Of a stretch of 64,000 nt of DNA, positions 7,936 to 24,303 are shown piece by piece (the first letter of the stretch is position 1; the number at the start of each line of letters is the position of its first letter). This stretch comes from a bacterium (lineage in GTDB: Bacteria; Armatimonadota; Zipacnadia; Zipacnadales; UBA11051). The stretch is taken from NCBI GenBank assembly GCA_030604405.1, contig JAUVVY010000002.1, positions 124,001 through 188,000 of the forward strand, written 5' to 3'. The notes beneath the pieces were generated by a model, which was not told the origin of the DNA, did no database searches, and was given only the letters and a program-made list of their open reading frames with translations. The translations under genes and the position numbers were made by a program.

Positions 7936-8037
7936 CTTGCCAGATAGCGAAGTAGAATATTGACGCGGAGAAGGGTTTTGCGGTTCGCTGGCGAATATAG
8001 CAGGCAAAGCAATCTTACTTGGCAGAGAGGGAACGGC

Positions 8038-9432
8038 ATGGGAGACGGTATGAAGCTGGTGGCGCCGGCTGTGACGCCGCCGCTTGATCAGGGGTTTCGG
8101 CCGGCAGTGTTGGCTAATCGGGCATTTCTCGAAGATGTTGACAAGTCCGGCCAGGGCGCAGCCTTAGGCATCGCCCTGGAGCGCAATGATGCGGCAGTGA
8201 CCGTGTATGAGACCGAGGTATTCGCGCCCGACGCCCCCGCGGCACAGGCAAATCTCGAGTATGTCGAGCGGCTGGTGAAATTCCTGCTGTGGCAACGCGG
8301 CGGATGGAAGCTCACCGTTGCCGGCGATGCGCAGATCGCCGACCATATCAAGCAGGCCTATGCCGCCGACGGTATCCGGGCCTTCGATGCTGACCTGATG
8401 TTGAGCGTGTATGAGCAGCCCTTTGTCGTAGAAAACGTCGCGTACGAGGAGCTGCCAAGCGCCTCTGAGGGTACGGTGGCACTCGGAGGGCACCTTGAGG
8501 GCTGCCGCATCGGATTTGACCTGGGTGCCAGCGACCGCAAGACCAGCGCGGTGCTTGACGGTGCGACGGTCTTTTCCGAGGAGGTCATCTGGGATCCGAA
8601 GAATCAGGCCGACCCGCAATACCACTATGACGGTGTGATGGACTGTATCCAGCGCGCCGCCGAGTACCTGCCGTACGTTGATGCCATCGGCGGCAGCGCA
8701 GCCGGCATCTACATCAACAACCGCGCTCTGGTCGCCTCGCTCTTCCGAGGCATCCCCAAGGATCAATTCGATGCGAAGATCAAGGACATGTTCATCAATA
8801 TCGGCAAGGAATTTGGCGTGCCGCTGGTGGTGGTCAATGACGGCGAGGTCACTGCGCTGGCCGGTGCCATGGAGCTTGACGACACCGGCGTGCTGGGGAT
8901 TGCCATGGGTTCCAGCGAAGCCGGCGGCTATGTCACCCTCGACGGCAATATCACCGGCTGGCTCAATGAGCTGGCCTTCTGCCCGGTGGACTACAATCCG
9001 GATGGCCCTGTAGATGAATGGTCAGGGGATTACGGCGTCGGCTCGCAGTACTTCTCGCAGCAGTGCGTCGCGCGGCTCGTGCCTGTCGCCGGTATTGACC
9101 TGGATCGCGACATGGGCCAGCCCGAGCAGTTGCAGGCCGTGCAGGAGCTCATGGCGAAAGGGGACGAGCGGGCGCGGCAGATCATGGAGACCGTCGGCTG
9201 CTACCTCGGCTATGCCATCGCACACTACGCCGATTTCTACGATTTGAAGCACGTGCTGGTGCTGGGGCGAGTAACATCGGGCGAAGGCGGACATATCATC
9301 ATCGAGCAGGCACAAAGGGCCCTGGCGGAAGAATTCCCCGAACTGGGAGAGCAGGTGAGTCTGCAGACGCCTGATGAGGCCAGCCGCCGCGTTGGTCAAG
9401 CAATAGCGGCTGCGAGCCTGCCAGAAATATGA
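8038..9432 (+). CDS. ROK-family-like sugar kinase/ASKHA protein
   Basis: 464 residues from the ATG at 8038, which has AGAGGGA 7 bases upstream; an in-frame upstream start at 7960 is not supported. The C-terminal two thirds has an ASKHA fold: phosphate-1 loop IGFDLGASDRK, then VDAIGGSAAGIYINN, VPLVVVNDGEVTALAGAM and GIAMGSSEAGGY. The ROK family phosphorylates hexoses or acts as repressor. About 140 extra residues precede the ATP loop, and the usual ROK zinc motif (CxCGxxGCxE) is absent; its place reads DEWSGDYGVGSQYF. No helix-turn-helix is seen, so it is more likely an enzyme than a repressor. A PIG-L-like deacetylase follows 46 bases later, suggesting amino-sugar work, which is inference. 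Confidence 0.75.
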   Translation: MGDGMKLVAPAVTPPLDQGFRPAVLANRAFLEDVDKSGQGAALGIALERNDAAVTVYETEVFAPDAPAAQANLEYVERLVKFLLWQRGGWKLTVAGDAQIADHIKQAYAADGIRAFDADLMLSVYEQPFVVENVAYEELPSASEGTVALGGHLEGCRIGFDLGASDRKTSAVLDGATVFSEEVIWDPKNQADPQYHYDGVMDCIQRAAEYLPYVDAIGGSAAGIYINNRALVASLFRGIPKDQFDAKIKDMFINIGKEFGVPLVVVNDGEVTALAGAMELDDTGVLGIAMGSSEAGGYVTLDGNITGWLNELAFCPVDYNPDGPVDEWSGDYGVGSQYFSQQCVARLVPVAGIDLDRDMGQPEQLQAVQELMAKGDERARQIMETVGCYLGYAIAHYADFYDLKHVLVLGRVTSGEGGHIIIEQAQRALAEEFPELGEQVSLQTPDEASRRVGQAIAAASLPEI

Positions 9433-9462
9433 AGCAGCGCTGCAGATTTGCGAACGCTGCTT
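9432..9462 (+). other. Hairpin between ROK-like and PIG-L-like genes
   Basis: An 8-bp inverted repeat (AAGCAGCG ... CGCTGCTT) fills the short gap just before the ribosome site of the next gene. There is no U-tract, so it is not a terminator; it may shape mRNA stability or translation of the downstream gene. Confidence 0.4.
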
Positions 9463-9478
9463 GAAGGGAAGTGATAAG

Positions 9479-10327
9479 ATGGATTTCACCCAGGAAGGTG
9501 GGGAGCTGTTTGTTCCTGATGGCAGCGCGGAGGCCGAGGCCCTCGCGCGGACTACCTACATGGGCATCGGCGCGCATCAGGATGACCTGGAGATCATGGC
9601 CTATGACGGCATCCTGAGGTGCTTCGGGCAGCCCGAGCAATGGTTCTGCGGCCTCACGGTGACCAACGGCAGCGGCAGCCCGCGTGATGCCTTATATGCG
9701 GACTACAGCGACGACGAGATGCAGGTAGTGCGCCGCCAGGAGCAAAAGAAGGCCGCTTATATGGGCGAATACTGCGCACAAGTGCTGCTCGATTTCACCA
9801 GCAAGCAAGTGAAAGAGACCGACAAGCAGGCCGTCAGAGAGGACCTCAAGGCGATCATCACAGCGGCCAGGCCCCAGGTCATCTACACCCACAACTTCGC
9901 CGACAAGCACGATACCCACGTGGCGGTTGCGCTGCGCGTGCTTGAGGTGCTGAGGGAACTTCCGCCTGAGGCGCGGCCCGACAAGCTCTACGGCTGCGAG
10001 GTCTGGCGCGATCTCGACTGGATGACAGATGATGACAAGGTCGCATTTGATGTGGCTGGTCACGAGAATCTGGAGATGGCGATGCTGGGCATATTTGACT
10101 CCCAGGACTGCGGGGGCAAGCGCTATGATCTGGCGACAATGGGCCGCCGTGTCGCCAACGCCACCTACTACGCGACGCATGACGTTGACGTCACCCAGAG
10201 CATGATCTTCGCCATGGACCTGACGCCACTGATTGAGGATGACACTCTGGATGTTGACCCTTTCGTAGCCGAGCACATCAGCCGCTTTGCCGCCGATGTC
10301 AGTGACCGCATAGGCAGAATGACCTGA
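9479..10327 (+). CDS. PIG-L/LmbE-like N-acetylglucosaminyl deacetylase family protein
   Basis: 282 residues; ATG at 9479 after GAAGGGAAG. The family motif AHPDD appears as GAHQDDLE near residue 32 (proline replaced by glutamine), with the metal ligands His, Asp and Asp kept. The second site motif HxxxH-like is THNFADKHDTHVA. These zinc enzymes remove acetyl groups from GlcNAc in small molecules or lipids (MshB, BshB, LmbE). No signal peptide, so cytoplasmic. The context next to the ROK-like gene suggests handling of an N-acetylated sugar or glycoside. The precise substrate cannot be read from sequence. Confidence 0.85.
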   Translation: MDFTQEGGELFVPDGSAEAEALARTTYMGIGAHQDDLEIMAYDGILRCFGQPEQWFCGLTVTNGSGSPRDALYADYSDDEMQVVRRQEQKKAAYMGEYCAQVLLDFTSKQVKETDKQAVREDLKAIITAARPQVIYTHNFADKHDTHVAVALRVLEVLRELPPEARPDKLYGCEVWRDLDWMTDDDKVAFDVAGHENLEMAMLGIFDSQDCGGKRYDLATMGRRVANATYYATHDVDVTQSMIFAMDLTPLIEDDTLDVDPFVAEHISRFAADVSDRIGRMT

Positions 10328-12182: not shown

Positions 12183-12977
12183 TCAGTCGCTCTCTGGGCC
12201 CCGATGAGTTGTGCACCGACGCATCAACTCGGGCACTACTTCATCGCTCTTAACCTTGCGAATAACCTCAACGGCTCCCTCTATCCACAGATCGAGAATC
12301 GCACGGCCTTTGCCGACGGTGGCCTTGTCCGGCCCGCCACAGACCATATCTCCCCATTCCGCAATCCAGTCGACAGGCGTTAGCACCGCCTTGGAATCAA
12401 GTTGGGACTTCCCCGACGGGCCCCAGTATTTGCCGCTCGTACGCTCCATCCTGATTAGCTCGGGCATGACGGCCAGAGCAACGCTCGTCTCCAGCTCACC
12501 GGCGTGACCGTAATGCTCGCTCTCCAGAAGCGGCGTGATCTCGTCCATCTTGCCGGCGAAGGGCGGAATCGAATAGACCGCATAGGCCCGCCCTGTCTCC
12601 AGCACGTGATACAGAATCCCATCACACATCGGCGCATTGCCGCCGTGGCCGTGCAGCATGACAATCTTGTTGAACCCGTTACGATGGATCTCATCGCAAA
12701 TGCAGGTCACGTGCTCTAACAGCACGTCGGATTGGATGTGCACCGCGCCGGGCTGGAAACGGCACTGAGCCACGAAGGTGTAGGGAATCGTCGGCATGAC
12801 GACAAGCGGCTCTTGTGCTGCGATCTGCTCGGCAACGTGGTCAATGATGATCGCGTCACAGCCCAGCGGCAGGTGTGGCCCGTGCCGTTCCAGGCTGCCC
12901 ACCGGTATCATCGCCACGCCCTCGGCCTGCTTGCAGGCCTTGCCCAGGTCGTCTGAGGTCAATTCCATCCATCTCAT
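12183..12977 (-). CDS. Creatininase-family amidohydrolase
   Basis: 264 residues; ATG at 12977 with GGAGGGGGA. Creatininase/MftE signature residues are present: GSLERHGPHLPLGCD (metal Glu, His, Asp), MLHGHGGN and GHAGELETS. Members are metal-dependent hydrolases of cyclic amides or formamides (creatininase, FAPy deformylase, MftE). It is the last gene of the minus-strand run of five amidohydrolases and lies 28 bases beyond the last of them, so co-transcription is likely. The pairing suggests a pathway that opens and cleaves a cyclic or amide substrate, but the substrate is not deducible. Confidence 0.88.
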   Translation of the reverse strand: MRWMELTSDDLGKACKQAEGVAMIPVGSLERHGPHLPLGCDAIIIDHVAEQIAAQEPLVVMPTIPYTFVAQCRFQPGAVHIQSDVLLEHVTCICDEIHRNGFNKIVMLHGHGGNAPMCDGILYHVLETGRAYAVYSIPPFAGKMDEITPLLESEHYGHAGELETSVALAVMPELIRMERTSGKYWGPSGKSQLDSKAVLTPVDWIAEWGDMVCGGPDKATVGKGRAILDLWIEGAVEVIRKVKSDEVVPELMRRCTTHRGPESD

Positions 12978-13005
12978 GCTGATCCCCCTCCTGTCGTGCA
13001 GACAT

Positions 13006-13896
13006 TTAGAATTTCAATATGCGCTCCGCGTTCTTGTGGCAAATCTTATCGTAAACTTCCTGCGATATCTTATCTTCTGCCAGTGCATCGCTCATGAAAT
13101 TGAGCAGGTTGACCAGCACGTTTTCCCGGTTAGGCGGTGCGCAGACATCGGTGCCGAAGCAAAGCTGGTCCTGAAGCTCGGCCATGAACCAGTAGCCGAA
13201 CTCGGGGTCGCGGCTGACAGCGTTGTAGCCGCTTCCTGCCGACAGATCGCCGATTACATTAGGATATTTGCGCATCAGCTCGACCACGCGTCCGCCCTCG
13301 ACCACCGGCTCGTTGGGGTAACCGGCCCAGTTGTCCTCATTAACGTCGCCGCTGATATGCGACCACCACGGCTGTGAGTGGCACAGCCACACCAGGTCCG
13401 GATGCTTTTGGATCTGCTGCTCGAACCGGGGAAGCCCCAGGTCGTCTATCAGGCCATAGGTTCCGCCATCTTGTGCTGCAATGTGAAATGTCAGCGGAAT
13501 GTCGGCCTTCTCGACGTGGTCGAAGAGGTTCTCGACGCGCGGATCATCGAAGTAGAGATTGCAGCACACCTCACCGATGCCCCGGCAGCCGATGTCCTTG
13601 TAGTATGACAGCATGTAGCCCAGGTCGGCGTCCGGTGTGTTATGACACTGGCGCGGATCAATGTTGCAAAATGGGATGAAGCGGTCCGGATACTTCTCCC
13701 ATACCGCGAATATCTCTTCATTGGACTGTATTACTGGCACGTTGTCGGGGTTCGTGCATGGCAGCAGCACGCCTTTGTCAATGCCGGCATGGTCGTACAT
13801 TTCGATGAGCTCCCAGGGCGTGGCGAAGCAATTGTCGCGCCCCGGCCAGGGCATTGTGCGCTTCGGCGTTGTGTGCACATGAATGTCAATAACCAT
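13006..13896 (-). CDS. Amidohydrolase-2 family protein, paralogue 5 of tandem array
   Basis: 296 residues from the ATG at 13896 (GGAGGTG upstream); a longer frame to 14037 is a readthrough of the spacer. Metal-binding HxH is in VIDIHVHTT, further likely ligands are in GIGEVCCN, LTFHIAAQ, WLCHSQPWW and LCFGTDVC. Known relatives (PF04909) are decarboxylases or hydrolases with a Zn or Mn site. It keeps the shared array blocks YPDRFIPFCNIDPR and GDLSAGSGYNAVSRDP. Together with its four siblings it forms a gene-duplication cluster followed by the creatininase-like gene. Confidence 0.87.
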   Translation of the reverse strand: MVIDIHVHTTPKRTMPWPGRDNCFATPWELIEMYDHAGIDKGVLLPCTNPDNVPVIQSNEEIFAVWEKYPDRFIPFCNIDPRQCHNTPDADLGYMLSYYKDIGCRGIGEVCCNLYFDDPRVENLFDHVEKADIPLTFHIAAQDGGTYGLIDDLGLPRFEQQIQKHPDLVWLCHSQPWWSHISGDVNEDNWAGYPNEPVVEGGRVVELMRKYPNVIGDLSAGSGYNAVSRDPEFGYWFMAELQDQLCFGTDVCAPPNRENVLVNLLNFMSDALAEDKISQEVYDKICHKNAERILKF

Positions 13897-13951
13897 CGTT
13901 GGCACCTCCGTGTGGCTCACTGATTTGGTGTGTGGATGCGGTGCGTACGGC

Positions 13952-14842
13952 TCAAATCCCCAGCACGCGCTGGGCGTTCTTGTAGGCAATCTTCTCGAAT
14001 ACTTCCTGCGAAATTCTGTCATTTCCAAGCGCGTCATTGAGGAAGTTCGCCAGGTTCACCAACACGCTGTCGCGGCCGCCGGGTGAGCAGATATCTGTGC
14101 CGAAACAGAGCTGATCCTGGAATTCATCAAAGAACCAGTAGCCGAATTCCGGGTCCCGGCTGACCGCGTTGTAGCCGCTTCCTGCGGACAGATCGCCATA
14201 TACGTTGGGGCACTTCTCCATCAACTCCACCACGCGCCCGCCTTCCACAACCGCGCCCTTTGGATAGCTGCCCCAATTGTCTTCATTGACATCACCGCTG
14301 ATGTGCGACCACCACGGCTGCGAATGGCACAGCCAGACGAGGTCCGGGAATTTCCGGATCGCCTTTTCGAACCGGGGCAGACCCAGCTCATCTATTAGCC
14401 CGTAGCTATTGCCCTCCCGGGTGGCGATATGGAAGCACAGCGGCATTGCGCATTGCTCGGCGTGGTAAAACAGGTTCTCGACTCGCGGGTCATCGTAGTA
14501 CAGGTTGCAGCAGACCTCGCCGATTCCACGGCAGCCGTGGTCCTGGTACCAGCCGATGTAATAAGAGAGGTCTTCCTCTGGGTTGTTGTTCCACAGGCGC
14601 GGGTCAATATTACAGAAGGGGATAAAGCGGTCCGGGTACTGCTCAACTATCGCCAGGATTTCCTCATTCGACTGCACGCAGTGGATGCCTTCCGGATTGG
14701 CATTGGGAAGCAGCACAGCCTGCGTTATGCCTGCGGTATCGTACATCTCGATAAGCTCTTGCGGCGTGGCCAGGGTTTGATCCCCGCCCTTCCAGAGAAT
14801 ACTTGGCATGGCGGTTGTATGCACGTGAATGTCTATGAACAT
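13952..14842 (-). CDS. Amidohydrolase-2 family protein, paralogue 4 of tandem array
   Basis: 296 residues, ATG at 14842 with GGAGGA 6 bases upstream. HxH in FIDIHVHTT, Glu in GIGEVCCN, His in LCFHIATR and WLCHSQPWW, Asp in LCFGTDIC. Its start overlaps the 3' end of paralogue 3 by 10 bases, so the two are probably translationally coupled. It appears closest to paralogue 5 by eye (long shared runs such as SHISGDVNEDNW). Cytoplasmic, no signal peptide. Confidence 0.87.
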   Translation of the reverse strand: MFIDIHVHTTAMPSILWKGGDQTLATPQELIEMYDTAGITQAVLLPNANPEGIHCVQSNEEILAIVEQYPDRFIPFCNIDPRLWNNNPEEDLSYYIGWYQDHGCRGIGEVCCNLYYDDPRVENLFYHAEQCAMPLCFHIATREGNSYGLIDELGLPRFEKAIRKFPDLVWLCHSQPWWSHISGDVNEDNWGSYPKGAVVEGGRVVELMEKCPNVYGDLSAGSGYNAVSRDPEFGYWFFDEFQDQLCFGTDICSPGGRDSVLVNLANFLNDALGNDRISQEVFEKIAYKNAQRVLGI

Positions 14843-15738
14843 GTCTTGTCCTCCATGCCTAGCAGCCTCTGTGCGTTTTCAAATGCGATTTTGTCAAACA
14901 CTTCCTGTGTGATCCTGCCTTTCTCGAGTGCGTCCTTGAGGAAGTTGGCGAGATCGATCAGAACATTGTCGCGGTTGCTGGGAGCGCAGACGTCTGTGCC
15001 GAAACAGAGCTTGTCCTGGAACTCGGTCAGGAACCGATAGCCGAATTCGGGGTCGCGGCTGACGGAATTGAAGCCACTACCTGCCGACAGATCGCCATAC
15101 ACATTGGGGTGATGCAGCAGCTCAGGCACCTTACCGCCTTCGGTCACCGGCCCTTTGGGATAGCCGCCGCGGGTGCCCTCGCTAACGTCACCGCTCATCT
15201 CCGACCAGAATGCCTGTGAGTGGCACAGGAACTTCAACTCGGGGAATCTCTCAACAGTCTTCTCAAAGCGCGGCAGATTCAGGTCGTCAATGATGCCGTA
15301 GGTGCCGCCCTGACGAGTAGCCACGTGGAAGGTCAACAACATCCCGGTCTTCTCAGCGTGGTAGAAGAGATTCTGCATCAGCGGGTCGTCAAAGTACAGA
15401 TTGGCGCACACTTCCCCGACCCCCGGACAGCCACGCTCTCTGTAATACTCCATCAGATACGCCAGGTCGGCGTCGGGCGAATTGTCAATCATCCTCGGGT
15501 CAATGTTGCAGAACGCAATGAAGCGGTCCGGGTACCGCTCCGCGATTTCGATAGCATCTTCGTTGGACTGCACGACATGGGCGCACTCGGGATTTATGCC
15601 TGGTAGAATCACCGCCTTTTCGATGCCTACCTCATCGTACATCTCGATTAGCTCCTCCGGCGTCGCGTATGTCTGGTCACTACCGTATCGGTTGGGGCTC
15701 GGTTTGTTTCTCGTATGCACGTGAATGTCTATAAACAT
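14833..15738 (-). CDS. Amidohydrolase-2 family protein, paralogue 3 of tandem array
   Basis: 301 residues, ATG at 15738 with GAGAGGA upstream. Same layout as its siblings: FIDIHVHTR, GVGEVCAN, LTFHVATR, FLCHSQAFW and LCFGTDVC. The C-terminus carries a short extra tail (MEDKTCS) that is read through the ribosome site and start of paralogue 4. The middle region differs most (TVERFPELKF and VSEGTRGGYP), so substrate contacts may differ. Confidence 0.87.
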   Translation of the reverse strand: MFIDIHVHTRNKPSPNRYGSDQTYATPEELIEMYDEVGIEKAVILPGINPECAHVVQSNEDAIEIAERYPDRFIAFCNIDPRMIDNSPDADLAYLMEYYRERGCPGVGEVCANLYFDDPLMQNLFYHAEKTGMLLTFHVATRQGGTYGIIDDLNLPRFEKTVERFPELKFLCHSQAFWSEMSGDVSEGTRGGYPKGPVTEGGKVPELLHHPNVYGDLSAGSGFNSVSRDPEFGYRFLTEFQDKLCFGTDVCAPSNRDNVLIDLANFLKDALEKGRITQEVFDKIAFENAQRLLGMEDKTCS

Positions 15739-15755
15739 CTTCGTCCTCTCTTCTT

Positions 15756-15840
15756 CGCGTAGGTCGGGCTTGCCCGCAGGCCCTGCCGTGTGCGCCCTGA
15801 GCTTGTCGAAGGGAGCGAAGTCGAAGGCCAGCCCGACGCC
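15756..15840. repeat. Composite dispersed repeat between amidohydrolase genes
   Basis: Starts with a variant of the palindromic family (cgcgtaggtcgggcttgccc) and continues with CCCTGAGCTTGTCGAAGGG and gcgaagtcgaaggccagcccgac. Parts match the repeats at 20361-20440 and 63316-63413. It sits inside the probable operon, so it should be transcribed. Confidence 0.7.
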
Positions 15841-15877
15841 ATATTGTTAGCGTCAGTTCCGTCCACTCACCGTACAG

Positions 15878-16768
15878 TTACAGTTTCAGCACTCGCTCGG
15901 CGTTCTTGTGCGAGATCTTGTCGAACACTTCCTGGCTGATCTTGCCCTTGGCCAGCGCGTCTTCCATGAAGTTCTTGAGGTTAATCAACGTGTTGTCGCG
16001 ATTACTCGGCTGGCACACGTCGGTCGCGAAGCAAAGCTGGTCCTGGAATTCATCAAAGAACCAGTAGCCCCAATCGGGATCGCGACTGACGGCATTGTAG
16101 CCGCTGCCGGCCGACAGGTCGCCATAGATGTTGGGGTACTTGCTCATCAGCTCGACCACGCGGCCGCCTTCGACTACCGGGCCCTTCGGATAGCCGCCCC
16201 AGGTCTCCTCGGTGACGTCGCCGCTGACGTATGACCACCAGGGGTTGCTGTGAGCGAGGAAGGTGAGGCCGGGATGGGTCTTGACCTGCTCTTCGAGGCG
16301 GGGGAGACCGAAGCTGTCAATCAGGCCATAGGTGTTGCCCTCCTGGGCGGCGACGTGGAAGAGCAGGGGCATGTCGCATTTTTCGGCGTGGTCGCAAAGG
16401 TTGGTGACGCGGGGGTCATCCCACCAGAGGTTGGCAGTCATCTCGCCGATGCCCTTGCAGCCCTTGTCCTTGTAATGGTTGATTGCGAAGGACAGGTCAA
16501 CATCGGGCGAGTTGCGCATCAGGCGGGGGTCTATGTTGCAGAACGGAATGAAGCGGTCGGGGTATTTTTCTGCGATCATCAGGATGTCTTCGTTGCTCTG
16601 GGTGAGGAAGTTGCACTCGGGGATGACCAGCGGGAGCATGACTCCCTTGTCAATGCCGACTTCGTCATACATCTCGATGAACTGCTCAGGCGTTGGCGGG
16701 CCTTGCATATCAGGTCCCCAGGTCAAGTCCGAAATCATCGCTATGTGGATGTGTATGTCAATAAACAT
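15878..16768 (-). CDS. Amidohydrolase-2 family protein, paralogue 2 of tandem array
   Basis: 296 residues, ATG at 16768 with GGAGGT. HxH reads FIDIHIHIA; further ligands in GIGEMTAN, LLFHVAAQ, FLAHSNPWW and LCFATDVC. It differs from paralogues 3-5 in the NLWWDDPRVTNL block and shares AxHYKDKGCKGIGE with paralogue 1. The C-terminus is the array standard ISQEVFDKISHKNAERVLKL. Confidence 0.87.
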   Translation of the reverse strand: MFIDIHIHIAMISDLTWGPDMQGPPTPEQFIEMYDEVGIDKGVMLPLVIPECNFLTQSNEDILMIAEKYPDRFIPFCNIDPRLMRNSPDVDLSFAINHYKDKGCKGIGEMTANLWWDDPRVTNLCDHAEKCDMPLLFHVAAQEGNTYGLIDSFGLPRLEEQVKTHPGLTFLAHSNPWWSYVSGDVTEETWGGYPKGPVVEGGRVVELMSKYPNIYGDLSAGSGYNAVSRDPDWGYWFFDEFQDQLCFATDVCQPSNRDNTLINLKNFMEDALAKGKISQEVFDKISHKNAERVLKL

Positions 16769-16852
16769 ATCAAACCTCCGGTACGCTTTCGCCCGTATCG
16801 GGCGTGATTGAGACGCTTTGCCTATGCTATCAGGACCAAGACATGCGGAAAT

Positions 16853-17743
16853 TCAGAGGCCGAGCACGCGCTCGGCGTTCTTATGGGTTACCTTGTCGAA
16901 TACCTCCTGAGAGAGCTTGCCTTTGGTCAGGCCGTCCTCAAGGAAGTCTTTTAGATAGATCAGTAGGTTATCCATTTGCTCCAACTGGTAGCAGTCAGTC
17001 CCGAAGAGCAACTGGTCCTGGAACTCGGTGAGGAACGCATAGCCGAAGTCGGGATCACGGCTGACGGCATTATAACCGCTGCCGGCCGAGAGATCTCCGT
17101 GCAGGCTCGGGTAGCGTTTTAGAAGCTCCGGGATGCGCCCACCTGCGACTACCGGCCCATCCGGGTAGCCGCCCCAGTTCTCATCATTGACATCTGCGCT
17201 GATATGCGACCAGAATGGCTGAGAGTGCGCCAGGAAGACCAGGTCCGGGAAATTCTGCAGCGTCTTTTCCAGGCGCGGAAGCCCCAGTTCGTCTATGAAC
17301 CCATAAATGCCGCCTTCTCTGGTGGCAACATGGAAGGTCAGGGGCATCCGGCAGGCTTCGGCGTGGTGAAACAGGTTCCAGCAGCGCGGATCGTCGAAGT
17401 GGAGGTTGGCTGTAATCTCGCCGATGCCTTTGCAGCCCTTGTCTTTGTAGTGGTTGATGACGAAGGCCAGGTCGGTGTCGGGGGAGTTGATGGACAGCCT
17501 CGGGTCAATGCAGCAGAAGGGAATCAGCCGATCGGGGTAAAGCGCCGCGCATTGCAGAATGTCCTCATTTGACTGCACGCAAGCGCGCGGCTCCGGCTGC
17601 GTCGCGGACAGGATCACCCCTTTGGATATGCCGACTTCATCGTACATCTGCACAAGCTCCTCGGGGTTGCCGATGCCCTTGTCTGCCAGCGGCCGCATTT
17701 CCCTCGGATAGATCGTGGTGTGGGCGTGAATGTCTATGAACAT
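16853..17743 (-). CDS. Amidohydrolase-2 family protein, paralogue 1 of tandem array
   Basis: 296 residues from the ATG at 17743 (GGAGG upstream; a further in-frame start at 17776 lacks support). Ligand motifs: FIDIHAHTT, GIGEITAN, LTFHVATR, FLAHSQPFW and LLFGTDCY. It is the promoter-proximal gene of the array. The 225-base gap upstream contains the terminator of the SDR gene, so the array is its own transcription unit; a weak TTGTTG/TATTAT pair near 17810 could be its promoter but I do not call it. Confidence 0.87.
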   Translation of the reverse strand: MFIDIHAHTTIYPREMRPLADKGIGNPEELVQMYDEVGISKGVILSATQPEPRACVQSNEDILQCAALYPDRLIPFCCIDPRLSINSPDTDLAFVINHYKDKGCKGIGEITANLHFDDPRCWNLFHHAEACRMPLTFHVATREGGIYGFIDELGLPRLEKTLQNFPDLVFLAHSQPFWSHISADVNDENWGGYPDGPVVAGGRIPELLKRYPSLHGDLSAGSGYNAVSRDPDFGYAFLTEFQDQLLFGTDCYQLEQMDNLLIYLKDFLEDGLTKGKLSQEVFDKVTHKNAERVLGL

Positions 17744-17890: not shown

Positions 17891-17925
17891 AAAAGAAAAG
17901 GCCCGCCCCATCATCGGGGCGAGCC
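17891..17925 (-). terminator. Intrinsic terminator downstream of the SDR gene
   Basis: On the minus strand, a hairpin with arms ggctcgcccc and ggggcgggcc around gatgat (17925-17900) is followed by CTTTTCTTTT (17899-17891). It separates the SDR gene from the amidohydrolase array. Confidence 0.75.
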
Positions 17926-17968: not shown

Positions 17969-19015
17969 CTAGTAGATGTGGTCTGCTTTGCCGAACATCG
18001 TCGGCAGGTCCCAGTCCTCGCCATCGTTGATGACCCATTTGGCCGCCGCCTCGATCATCTCGTCCACGCCGTCGCGGTACGGGCCAAAGCGCTCGACGCA
18101 GAAGTCATCATTGGCAATCAGCGCTGTGTCGGCCTTCTCGCCAACAAAGTTAGGCGCCTTGCCGATGTAGCTGCTGAGTTTGTTGCAGATCATCTCCACG
18201 TCGGTGACGGGGCCGGCCACGTTGAGGATGGTTGGCGGGTTGGCGGCGACCTCAAAGCCACGCAGCGCCCGGTCAATCGCATCGCGCTGCGACAGCAGGT
18301 TCACATGGGGCATTTCCAGCGAGATATTTTCGCCGGCATTGATCATTCTGGCCAGGTCCACAAGTACGCCGTAGCACAGGTGTTGGGAGTACATCAGGCG
18401 ATAGTGCGTGACCTTCTGGCTCTCGTGTCCGTGAGCGCTGGTGTTGAAGGCGGTCTCGCGGGCGAGGATCGAATAGCCGTAGATGCCCTGTGGGTCGAGC
18501 GTGGTCTGCTCGGTCGCGCCACCGAGAGCCGGATCGGTGTGCGGATAGGGGTTACCGGATGAGAAGTTAACGATACTGGAGCTGTTGTACTTGACGCCTA
18601 CGTTGGCCGGCAAAATCGCATTGAGCAGAATCGTCTTGCCCGGGTCGCCGGCAGAGCCGAACTTGAATCCGAGCATGAACACCATATTCTGCGCGCCGGG
18701 GAGATCAGCCAACTCCTGTTCATCGGTGAGATCGGCGGCAAAGCTTTCACATCCCCAGCTCTCGAACCGCTCGCGAGCTTGTTTGGCATAGTCGGTGATG
18801 AACAGGCCGGCGACCATGATCTTGCGGTTAGTGACGCCGGCTTTTCGGTCCGCTTTGACGAGCGTCTCGACCAGCTCGGGGCCAACCTTGCCCTCGCCAC
18901 CTATTATCATGATATCGCCGTCGAGGTCGGCCATCATTTCGACCAGCCCGTCGGTCGGGTCGCTCATGAATTCGCTCAACTGCTGGGGGTCTTTGACATC
19001 CAGAATGCCGTTCAT
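17969..19015 (-). CDS. NAD-dependent epimerase/dehydratase family (extended SDR), catalytic Lys absent
   Basis: 348 residues, ATG at 19015 with GGAAGGATCC. The N-terminal Rossmann motif is IMIIGGEGKVG (GxxGxxG variant), followed by ADLTDEQEL and SSSIVNFSSGNPYPH, as in nucleotide-sugar epimerases. The usual YxxxK is YGYSI in IYGYSILARET: the Tyr is kept, but Ile stands where Lys should be. It may therefore bind NAD without standard SDR chemistry, or catalyse a different reaction. An acidic N-terminal extension of about 30 residues precedes the Rossmann fold. It has its own promoter (19086-19114) and terminator, so it is monocistronic. Confidence 0.82.
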   Translation of the reverse strand: MNGILDVKDPQQLSEFMSDPTDGLVEMMADLDGDIMIIGGEGKVGPELVETLVKADRKAGVTNRKIMVAGLFITDYAKQARERFESWGCESFAADLTDEQELADLPGAQNMVFMLGFKFGSAGDPGKTILLNAILPANVGVKYNSSSIVNFSSGNPYPHTDPALGGATEQTTLDPQGIYGYSILARETAFNTSAHGHESQKVTHYRLMYSQHLCYGVLVDLARMINAGENISLEMPHVNLLSQRDAIDRALRGFEVAANPPTILNVAGPVTDVEMICNKLSSYIGKAPNFVGEKADTALIANDDFCVERFGPYRDGVDEMIEAAAKWVINDGEDWDLPTMFGKADHIY

Positions 19016-23160: not shown

Positions 23161-24282
23161 CTATTCGCTCTCTGGATTGAACAGACTGCCATATTCAGCG
23201 CGCAGGGCGCTCTGTTTGCTGAGGTAGTCTTCCCAGCCGTCCTCGGCTTGCAGCAGATTCAATTCGTCGAGGGAGGCCCAGCCTTCTGGCGGGCTTACGT
23301 CCGGCCGGGTCGAATAGGAGCCGAGCAGGCTTGAGAGCGCTGCCTGCCCCTCGTGCGAGAGCATGTATTCTACAAACAGCTTGCTGGCGTTGGGGTGTGG
23401 GCTGGTGCGCAATATCGCCACCGGCCCGAGGCACACCGGCACCCCGTCCTCCGGCCACACGACTTGAATCGGCTCGTGCTTGAGCCGGGCGTGCTGGTAC
23501 ACCTTGTAGCCAAGCACTCCGCCGGCGATCTGTGCATCGCCGCGTACCAGCGCCTGAAGTATGCCATCACCAGACTTGTGGACGGTGGGGCTGTGCGCCG
23601 CCAATTGCTCCCAGTACGAAACCCCGTATTTTTCCCTCAGGAAGTAATATTGCGCATACGCCGATCCGCCGCTCTGGGCATCCTTCATGGCTATCTTATT
23701 GGCCCATTTTTTGTCCAGCAGGTCGCGCCAGGTTTTCGGGGCCTGCTCCTCGGGCACGGTATCGGTGCTGTAAGCCAGGCACACTGTCACCAGTCGCGCG
23801 CCGGTCCAGTAGCCCGGCGCTTTGTACTCGGGTGCGATCGCTTTACTCTCGGCCGGCTCGTAGCGGTATAGTTGGCCGCGTTTGCGCAGCGAGATGAAGA
23901 TCCCCGGGTCCAGTACGTGGATGACGTCGGCACGGGTGTGGCCGGACTTGAGTTCTTCCTCCACCCGGCTGACGATGTCGAAGGTGCTCTGGCGGGTGAT
24001 GCGGACTTTCAAGAAGTCATATTTCTCCTCAAACATCCGGGCGAACTGCGCCGCCTGCGTTTGCGGCACCGACGTGTACCAGTTCAGCTCAGCTTCGCTG
24101 CGCGCCGCCTGCATTATCTCCTCAGGCGTCTTGGGGCGCGGGCCCTCCGGGCCGTTTTCATTGGTGATGGTGATTACTATCTCCTCATTATCGCCGCCGG
24201 GCGGACACCCTGAAAGCAGCACCATTGACAGCGCTAAAACGCACACAATAATTGCTAGACTTTGATGTGAGTTGGTATCCAT
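23161..24282 (-). CDS. Extracellular solute-binding lipoprotein (ABC type 1, Fe/thiamine/polyamine-like)
   Basis: 373 residues from the ATG at 24282; an in-frame TTG at 24297 is the alternative. Lipobox VLLSGC gives a lipid-anchored protein. The mature part has ELNWYTSVPQTQAAQFARMFE, ADVIHVLDPG, WRDLLDKKWANKIAMKDA and GDAQIAGGVLGYKVYQ, the layout of periplasmic Fe(III)/spermidine-type binding proteins. No ABC permease or ATPase is adjacent. Instead it begins 21 bases after the EamA-HAMP-cyclase fusion gene and is probably co-transcribed with it, so it may deliver a ligand to that sensor rather than to a transporter (inference). Confidence 0.85.
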   Translation of the reverse strand: MDTNSHQSLAIIVCVLALSMVLLSGCPPGGDNEEIVITITNENGPEGPRPKTPEEIMQAARSEAELNWYTSVPQTQAAQFARMFEEKYDFLKVRITRQSTFDIVSRVEEELKSGHTRADVIHVLDPGIFISLRKRGQLYRYEPAESKAIAPEYKAPGYWTGARLVTVCLAYSTDTVPEEQAPKTWRDLLDKKWANKIAMKDAQSGGSAYAQYYFLREKYGVSYWEQLAAHSPTVHKSGDGILQALVRGDAQIAGGVLGYKVYQHARLKHEPIQVVWPEDGVPVCLGPVAILRTSPHPNASKLFVEYMLSHEGQAALSSLLGSYSTRPDVSPPEGWASLDELNLLQAEDGWEDYLSKQSALRAEYGSLFNPESE

Positions 24283-24303
24283 CGCAATCGCATTCAAGAG
24301 TAA

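Follow-up and report, generated by a model that had tools for sequence, protein, structure and literature searches.

The window (the whole stretch of 64,000 nucleotides that was analysed) contains an array of six genes at 12183-17743, all on the minus strand. In coding order, 5' to 3', these are five Amidohydro_2 paralogues, here named copies E, D, C, B, and A, and a creatininase-like gene. Copy E (16853-17743, 296 aa) opens the array and is followed by copy D (15878-16768, 296 aa), copy C (14833-15738, 301 aa), copy B (13952-14842, 296 aa), and copy A (13006-13896, 296 aa); the creatininase-family (PF02633) hydrolase gene (12183-12977, 264 aa) closes it. These coordinates confirm what an earlier note on this DNA had described, i.e. 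five genes of about 296 residues lying head to tail and ending with a creatininase-like gene. For copy A, the true start is at 13896, where the family start MxIDIHVH is found, and the 343-aa ORF call begins too early. From copy E to the creatininase-like gene, the intergenic gaps are 84, 139, -10, 55, and 28 bp, the negative value being an overlap between the start of copy B and the end of copy C, and the spacing is operon-like. Pairwise identity among the five copies is ~56-70%, and each of them scores 570-603 bits against a profile built from the five; on a single strand within 5.6 kb, such an array is far beyond chance.

The longest gap, between copies D and C (15739-15877, minus strand, 139 bp), holds at 15794-15811 one copy of the 18-base sequence CTTCGACAAGCTCAGGGC, a dispersed intergenic repeat with 41 exact copies in the genome and 0 for the reversed control. 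Genes for a ROK-like kinase and a PIG-L deacetylase (7960-10327) are convergent with the array and also lie beside it in G003 and G004, two relatives from the same genus. It is true of the block, as the earlier note had it, that no transporter gene is attached; the nearest candidate, a gene for a solute-binding protein (23161-24297), lies ~5.4 kb upstream and is separated from the array by other genes.

A terminator-like hairpin of 11 pairs, followed by TTTTCTTTT, lies on the minus strand at 17900-17925, between copy E and an NAD-dependent epimerase-like gene upstream of the array (17969-19015, minus strand), which is kept as a neighbour in G001 and G003. The hairpin suggests a transcript of its own for the array, and it makes the epimerase-like gene less likely as the first gene of that transcript, although the scan as a whole found six terminator-like sites against 5.3 expected from shuffles, i.e. 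no enrichment. The epimerase-like gene is therefore probably transcribed separately. A promoter scan of the region before copy E gave no convincing promoter. The five copies and the creatininase-family gene are predicted to form one transcript.

All five copies belong to PF04909 (Amidohydro_2), with scores of 35.9-51.1 bits against a gathering cut-off of 26.4, and the features that define its fold (TIM barrel, HxH, two more His, and Asp) are present, the motifs occurring in every copy. AlphaFold2 models of copies C and D (pLDDT 95.6 and 95.0, respectively) match solved PF04909 members at Z >20. In the numbering of copy C, the putative metal ligands Glu109, His173, and Asp249 are found in 120/120 homologues, His6 and His8 in all homologues of this set with data, and His138 in 111/120. 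The catalytic motifs that the earlier note had read as intact are indeed so in 5/5 copies: HxH, Glu109, His138, His173, and F-[G/A]-T-D249. The copies fall in a subfamily whose members are 45-95% identical to one another and are spread over Armatimonadota, Lentisphaerota, Planctomycetota, Omnitrophota, Bacillota, and Bathyarchaeota MAGs; for this subfamily, neither an NCBIfam model nor a solved structure close to it was found. Members with ~45-52% identity occur in three Bathyarchaeota MAGs (L071, L072, and L116) and in L070, which is labelled Paceibacterota, through either transfer or mis-binning.

The best structural matches of the two models are 3irs (BB4693) and 3cjp (CAC3332), with Z of 22.6-23.5 over 231-246 residues. 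The next matches, at Z 19-21, are COG3618 amidohydrolases, 2-pyrone-dicarboxylate lactonase, and ACMSD-type decarboxylases, among which 4dlf/4do7 (COG3618) are best or tied-best at Z 20.6-21.3. The nearest solved structures share <22% identity with the copies and are uncharacterised, and there is no close relative with a known reaction. ACMSD and iso-orotate decarboxylases are not far behind, at Z ~20, and so the fold cannot tell hydrolysis from decarboxylation. The copies could be non-hydrolytic PF04909 enzymes in the manner of ACMSD, dihydroxybenzoate decarboxylase, or LigJ, which decarboxylate or hydrate carboxylated rings, each copy having a different acid substrate; many such decarboxylases are among the 50 best structural matches, at Z 19-20. 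By sequence, characterised decarboxylases with Z ~20 by fold are weak matches (4inf, E 0.08), and the invariant Glu109 aligns with a Glu of 3cjp and not with the decarboxylase 4inf, in a profile alignment that is itself weak.

The last gene matches PF02633 at 168.4 bits against a cut-off of 31.3, and in its first metal motif, the E, H, and D line up with those of creatininase. Four members of the family were considered as names for it: creatininase proper (TIGR04448, 91 vs 235 bits), MftE (TIGR03964, 85.9 vs 172 bits), IolN (NF041098, 68.9 vs 245 bits), and ArfB. The gene resembles them in its clear family match, but it differs in lying under every NCBIfam equivalog cut-off; therefore, none of those names fits. 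Its close orthologues, with 55-88% identity in G001-G003, place the gene in G000-G003 only, always directly after copy A, and the next-best protein within the order is 37% identical. No orthologue of it was found in the G004 genome.

At the DNA level, the best relatives are MAGs of Candidatus Zipacnadia / candidate division WS1 (Armatimonadota), to which the genome of the window, itself a MAG, also belongs; the class has been described from sediment that is anoxic or hypoxic (PMC10290634). Across the five genomes of the genus, parts of the E-D-C-B-A-creatininase series are kept in one constant order. G000, the genome of the window, has the whole series; G003 has E-D-C-A-creatininase, without B; G001, in whose assembly E and D are interrupted, has E-D-B-A-creatininase, without C; G002 has B-A-creatininase and G004 has D-C-A, both beginning at a contig start. 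Copy A is thus found in 5/5 genomes, copy B has an orthologue in G001 and a partial one in G002, and copy E has orthologues in L049 (6241-7131) and, disrupted, in L047. In G001, copies E (L047:1920-2730) and D (L047:2818-3704) carry a frame change, and E also lacks ~23 residues, which is either decay or assembly error. In the sister family, C and D are adjacent, C then D, in L053, L056, L057, and L060, and unlinked in L050/L055 and L051/L052. Since the copies are adjacent in one constant order within the genus, the array is old and inherited, with copy loss. The earlier note had also called such a run rare, and in the sample examined, the matches listed contain runs of at least three in this genus alone; these matches were taken down to an E-value limit, and one comparison scored at most eight candidates per genome.

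Adjacent, co-directional genes in a conserved order are also what would be expected if the five products formed hetero-oligomers, with active sites shared across unlike subunits, and acted as one enzyme. Precedents exist within PF04909, as AibH1H2 is a heterodimer (PMC12141560) and ACMSD uses an arginine of the neighbouring subunit (title of PDB 4ifk). However, copies are lost singly in relatives, B in G003 and C in G001, where E and D are moreover broken, and D occurs in other genera without an adjacent C (L051, L054). In addition, the full set of metal ligands is present in all five copies, and therefore none of them looks like a dead structural subunit. On balance, a single enzyme made of five unlike subunits is improbable.

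A tree of 57 homologues was used to place the copies. Copy A groups with L047, L048, L049, and L029, copy B with L047, and copy E with L049. Copy D groups with L049 and with copies from a second family within the order, and in a looser way with two Lentisphaerota MAGs, so that the D type extends beyond its own family. Copy C groups with L048, L049, and the copies of the other family, the branches around C being not strongly supported. In the AU test, a single clade is rejected for the five copies (p 0.003) and also for the full set of copies from the genus. At the same time, all five lie inside one 30-row clade (support 94/98), and the copies are most naturally read as products of old duplication inside a single subfamily. 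Between paralogues, dS is 1.5-2.7, which is near saturation, and dN/dS is 0.09-0.20; between orthologues, where dS is computable, dN/dS is ~0.08-0.17. The near-saturated dS, together with the low dN/dS, indicates that the copies are old and that each is under purifying selection. A recent tandem burst is ruled out by dS, tree, and AU test alike. The orthologous groups predate the species, and the split between C and A/B/D/E predates the order, as judged from the sequence phylogeny. The proposal in the earlier note, that the genes were duplicated for a range of related substrates, is therefore retained in part: duplication and a split in specificity find support in the sequences, whereas a recent local expansion is refuted, since the copies do not branch together, the outcome that the note itself had named as contrary evidence.

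The sequence support for a split in specificity is a residue switch. In the wider, multi-phylum family, the usual residues at positions 10, 17, 180, and 190 are Arg, Arg, Glu, and Arg, respectively, and copy C has all four. Copies A, B, D, and E belong to a 21-member clade (support 99/99) in which Trp190 is found in 21/21 members, and Glu180 and Arg10 in none; outside this clade, Arg190 is found in 90/99 members, and Trp190 in four more distant ones. In the models of C and D, residues 10, 180, and 190 lie on the loops after strands 1 and 6, the latter strand and a short helix carrying His173. Loops after the strands of a TIM barrel form the active-site face. From the secondary structure of the models, these residues may therefore contact the substrate pocket. 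The switch points to one old specificity change, followed by further duplication, and copy C would keep the ancestral type of pocket.

The copies might be largely redundant, with one activity kept for dosage; in keeping with this, the core and the putative metal ligands are highly conserved in 5/5 copies. The old divergence, the purifying selection on each lineage, and the change at 10, 180, and 190 argue against it, so that mere dosage is quite unlikely. For the decarboxylases and hydratases of carboxylated rings, in turn, the ancestral-type Arg10 and Arg190 are favourable, as they could bind carboxylates. However, the genes neighbouring the wider family are carbohydrate genes and not those of aromatic or kynurenine pathways; a non-hydrolytic reaction is thus unlikely, although it deserves more weight than redundancy.

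The neighbours in the wider family are mostly of carbohydrate type: Gfo/Idh/MocA oxidoreductases, xylose-isomerase-like proteins, LacI, GH4 glycosidase, and apiosidase-like proteins, with DegT aminotransferases, M55 peptidases, and sugar-type solute-binding proteins as well. These carbohydrate-type genes adjoin other family members and not the window array, and M55 peptidase and DegT aminotransferase genes are absent beside it; therefore, for the function of the array they give only a general pointer to carbohydrate metabolism. As a separate observation, a cassette of amidohydrolase, DegT aminotransferase, amidohydrolase, M55 D-aminopeptidase-like protein, and DegT aminotransferase occurs in Lentisphaerota (L106:6870-12104 and L113:5001-12106), with a similar arrangement in L085 (3771-9879) and L100. 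Its hosts include the isolate Oligosphaera ethanolica, a similar cassette is present in a Clostridia MAG, and no known pathway was recognised in it.

The best reading, quite plausible if still tentative, is that the array is an old, vertically inherited operon of five TIM-barrel hydrolases and a creatininase-family hydrolase that open rings in related sugar-derived substrates. Its architecture and history are held with high confidence. The sugar-derived substrate class, for which the evidence is the neighbouring genes of other family members, is held with moderate to low confidence, and ring-opening hydrolysis and differing specificities among the copies are both inferred, the latter from their sequences. 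Since the set is inherited in the genus and includes one pocket of the older type, it is probably a small enzyme set for related sugar-like compounds. Each cytosolic enzyme would open a ring, such as a sugar lactone or a cyclic ester or amide derived from a cyclitol or an amino sugar, and a metal centre of His6, His8, Glu109, His138, His173, and Asp249 would activate the water. Copy C would retain the ancestral binding pattern; in the ancestor of A, B, D, and E, the charged Arg10, Glu180, and Arg190 may have been replaced by small or aromatic residues (T/A, H/Y, and W, respectively), and this derived ancestor would then have duplicated again to give the four copies. In a bolder version, the genus-specific set of one ancestral-type and four derived-type amidohydrolases with the creatininase-family enzyme would jointly process related cyclic compounds that occur as a mixture, possibly in the form of mixed oligomers that share active sites. 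This is improbable; if true, the set would represent a pathway in anoxic-sediment Armatimonadota that has so far gone unrecognised.

The array is ordinary enzyme diversification, by old paralogues, in an uncharacterised subfamily and not a new kind of system, and it leaves general views unchanged. Nevertheless, it is a convenient system for the study of how substrate range changes in such a subfamily, since its paralogues stand in a natural order, their relative ages are known, their catalytic residues are intact, and three positions on the pocket face change cleanly across a whole clade. No literature was found on tandem amidohydrolases in Armatimonadota, creatininase-family lactonases, or Amidohydro_2 in Lentisphaerae, and the paper naming Zipacnadia does not mention amidohydrolases.

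Compared with known PF04909 enzymes of the COG2159/COG3618-like type, the array copies have the same single TIM-barrel domain of ~300 residues, with HxH after strand 1, His after strands 5 and 6, and Asp at strand 8, but they belong to an uncharacterised subfamily. The GIGE segment is common to the copies and 3cjp; however, 3irs and 3cjp are only 19-21% identical to them, and both lack a known reaction. COG3618 4dlf/4do7 and the 2-pyrone-4,6-dicarboxylate lactonase LigI (4d8l) share the fold (Z ~19-21), and the ring-opening proposed here resembles their reactions, but at 12-15% identity a likeness of fold does not by itself make the copies sugar lactonases. AibH1H2, a heterodimeric PF04909 oxygenase, consists of two paralogues of the family acting together. 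It differs in that the ligand set of AibH2 begins D25/H27 (PMC12141560), whereas HxH is present in all five array copies, and in that it is an oxygenase, whereas the lineages with the array are described as anoxic (PMC10290634).
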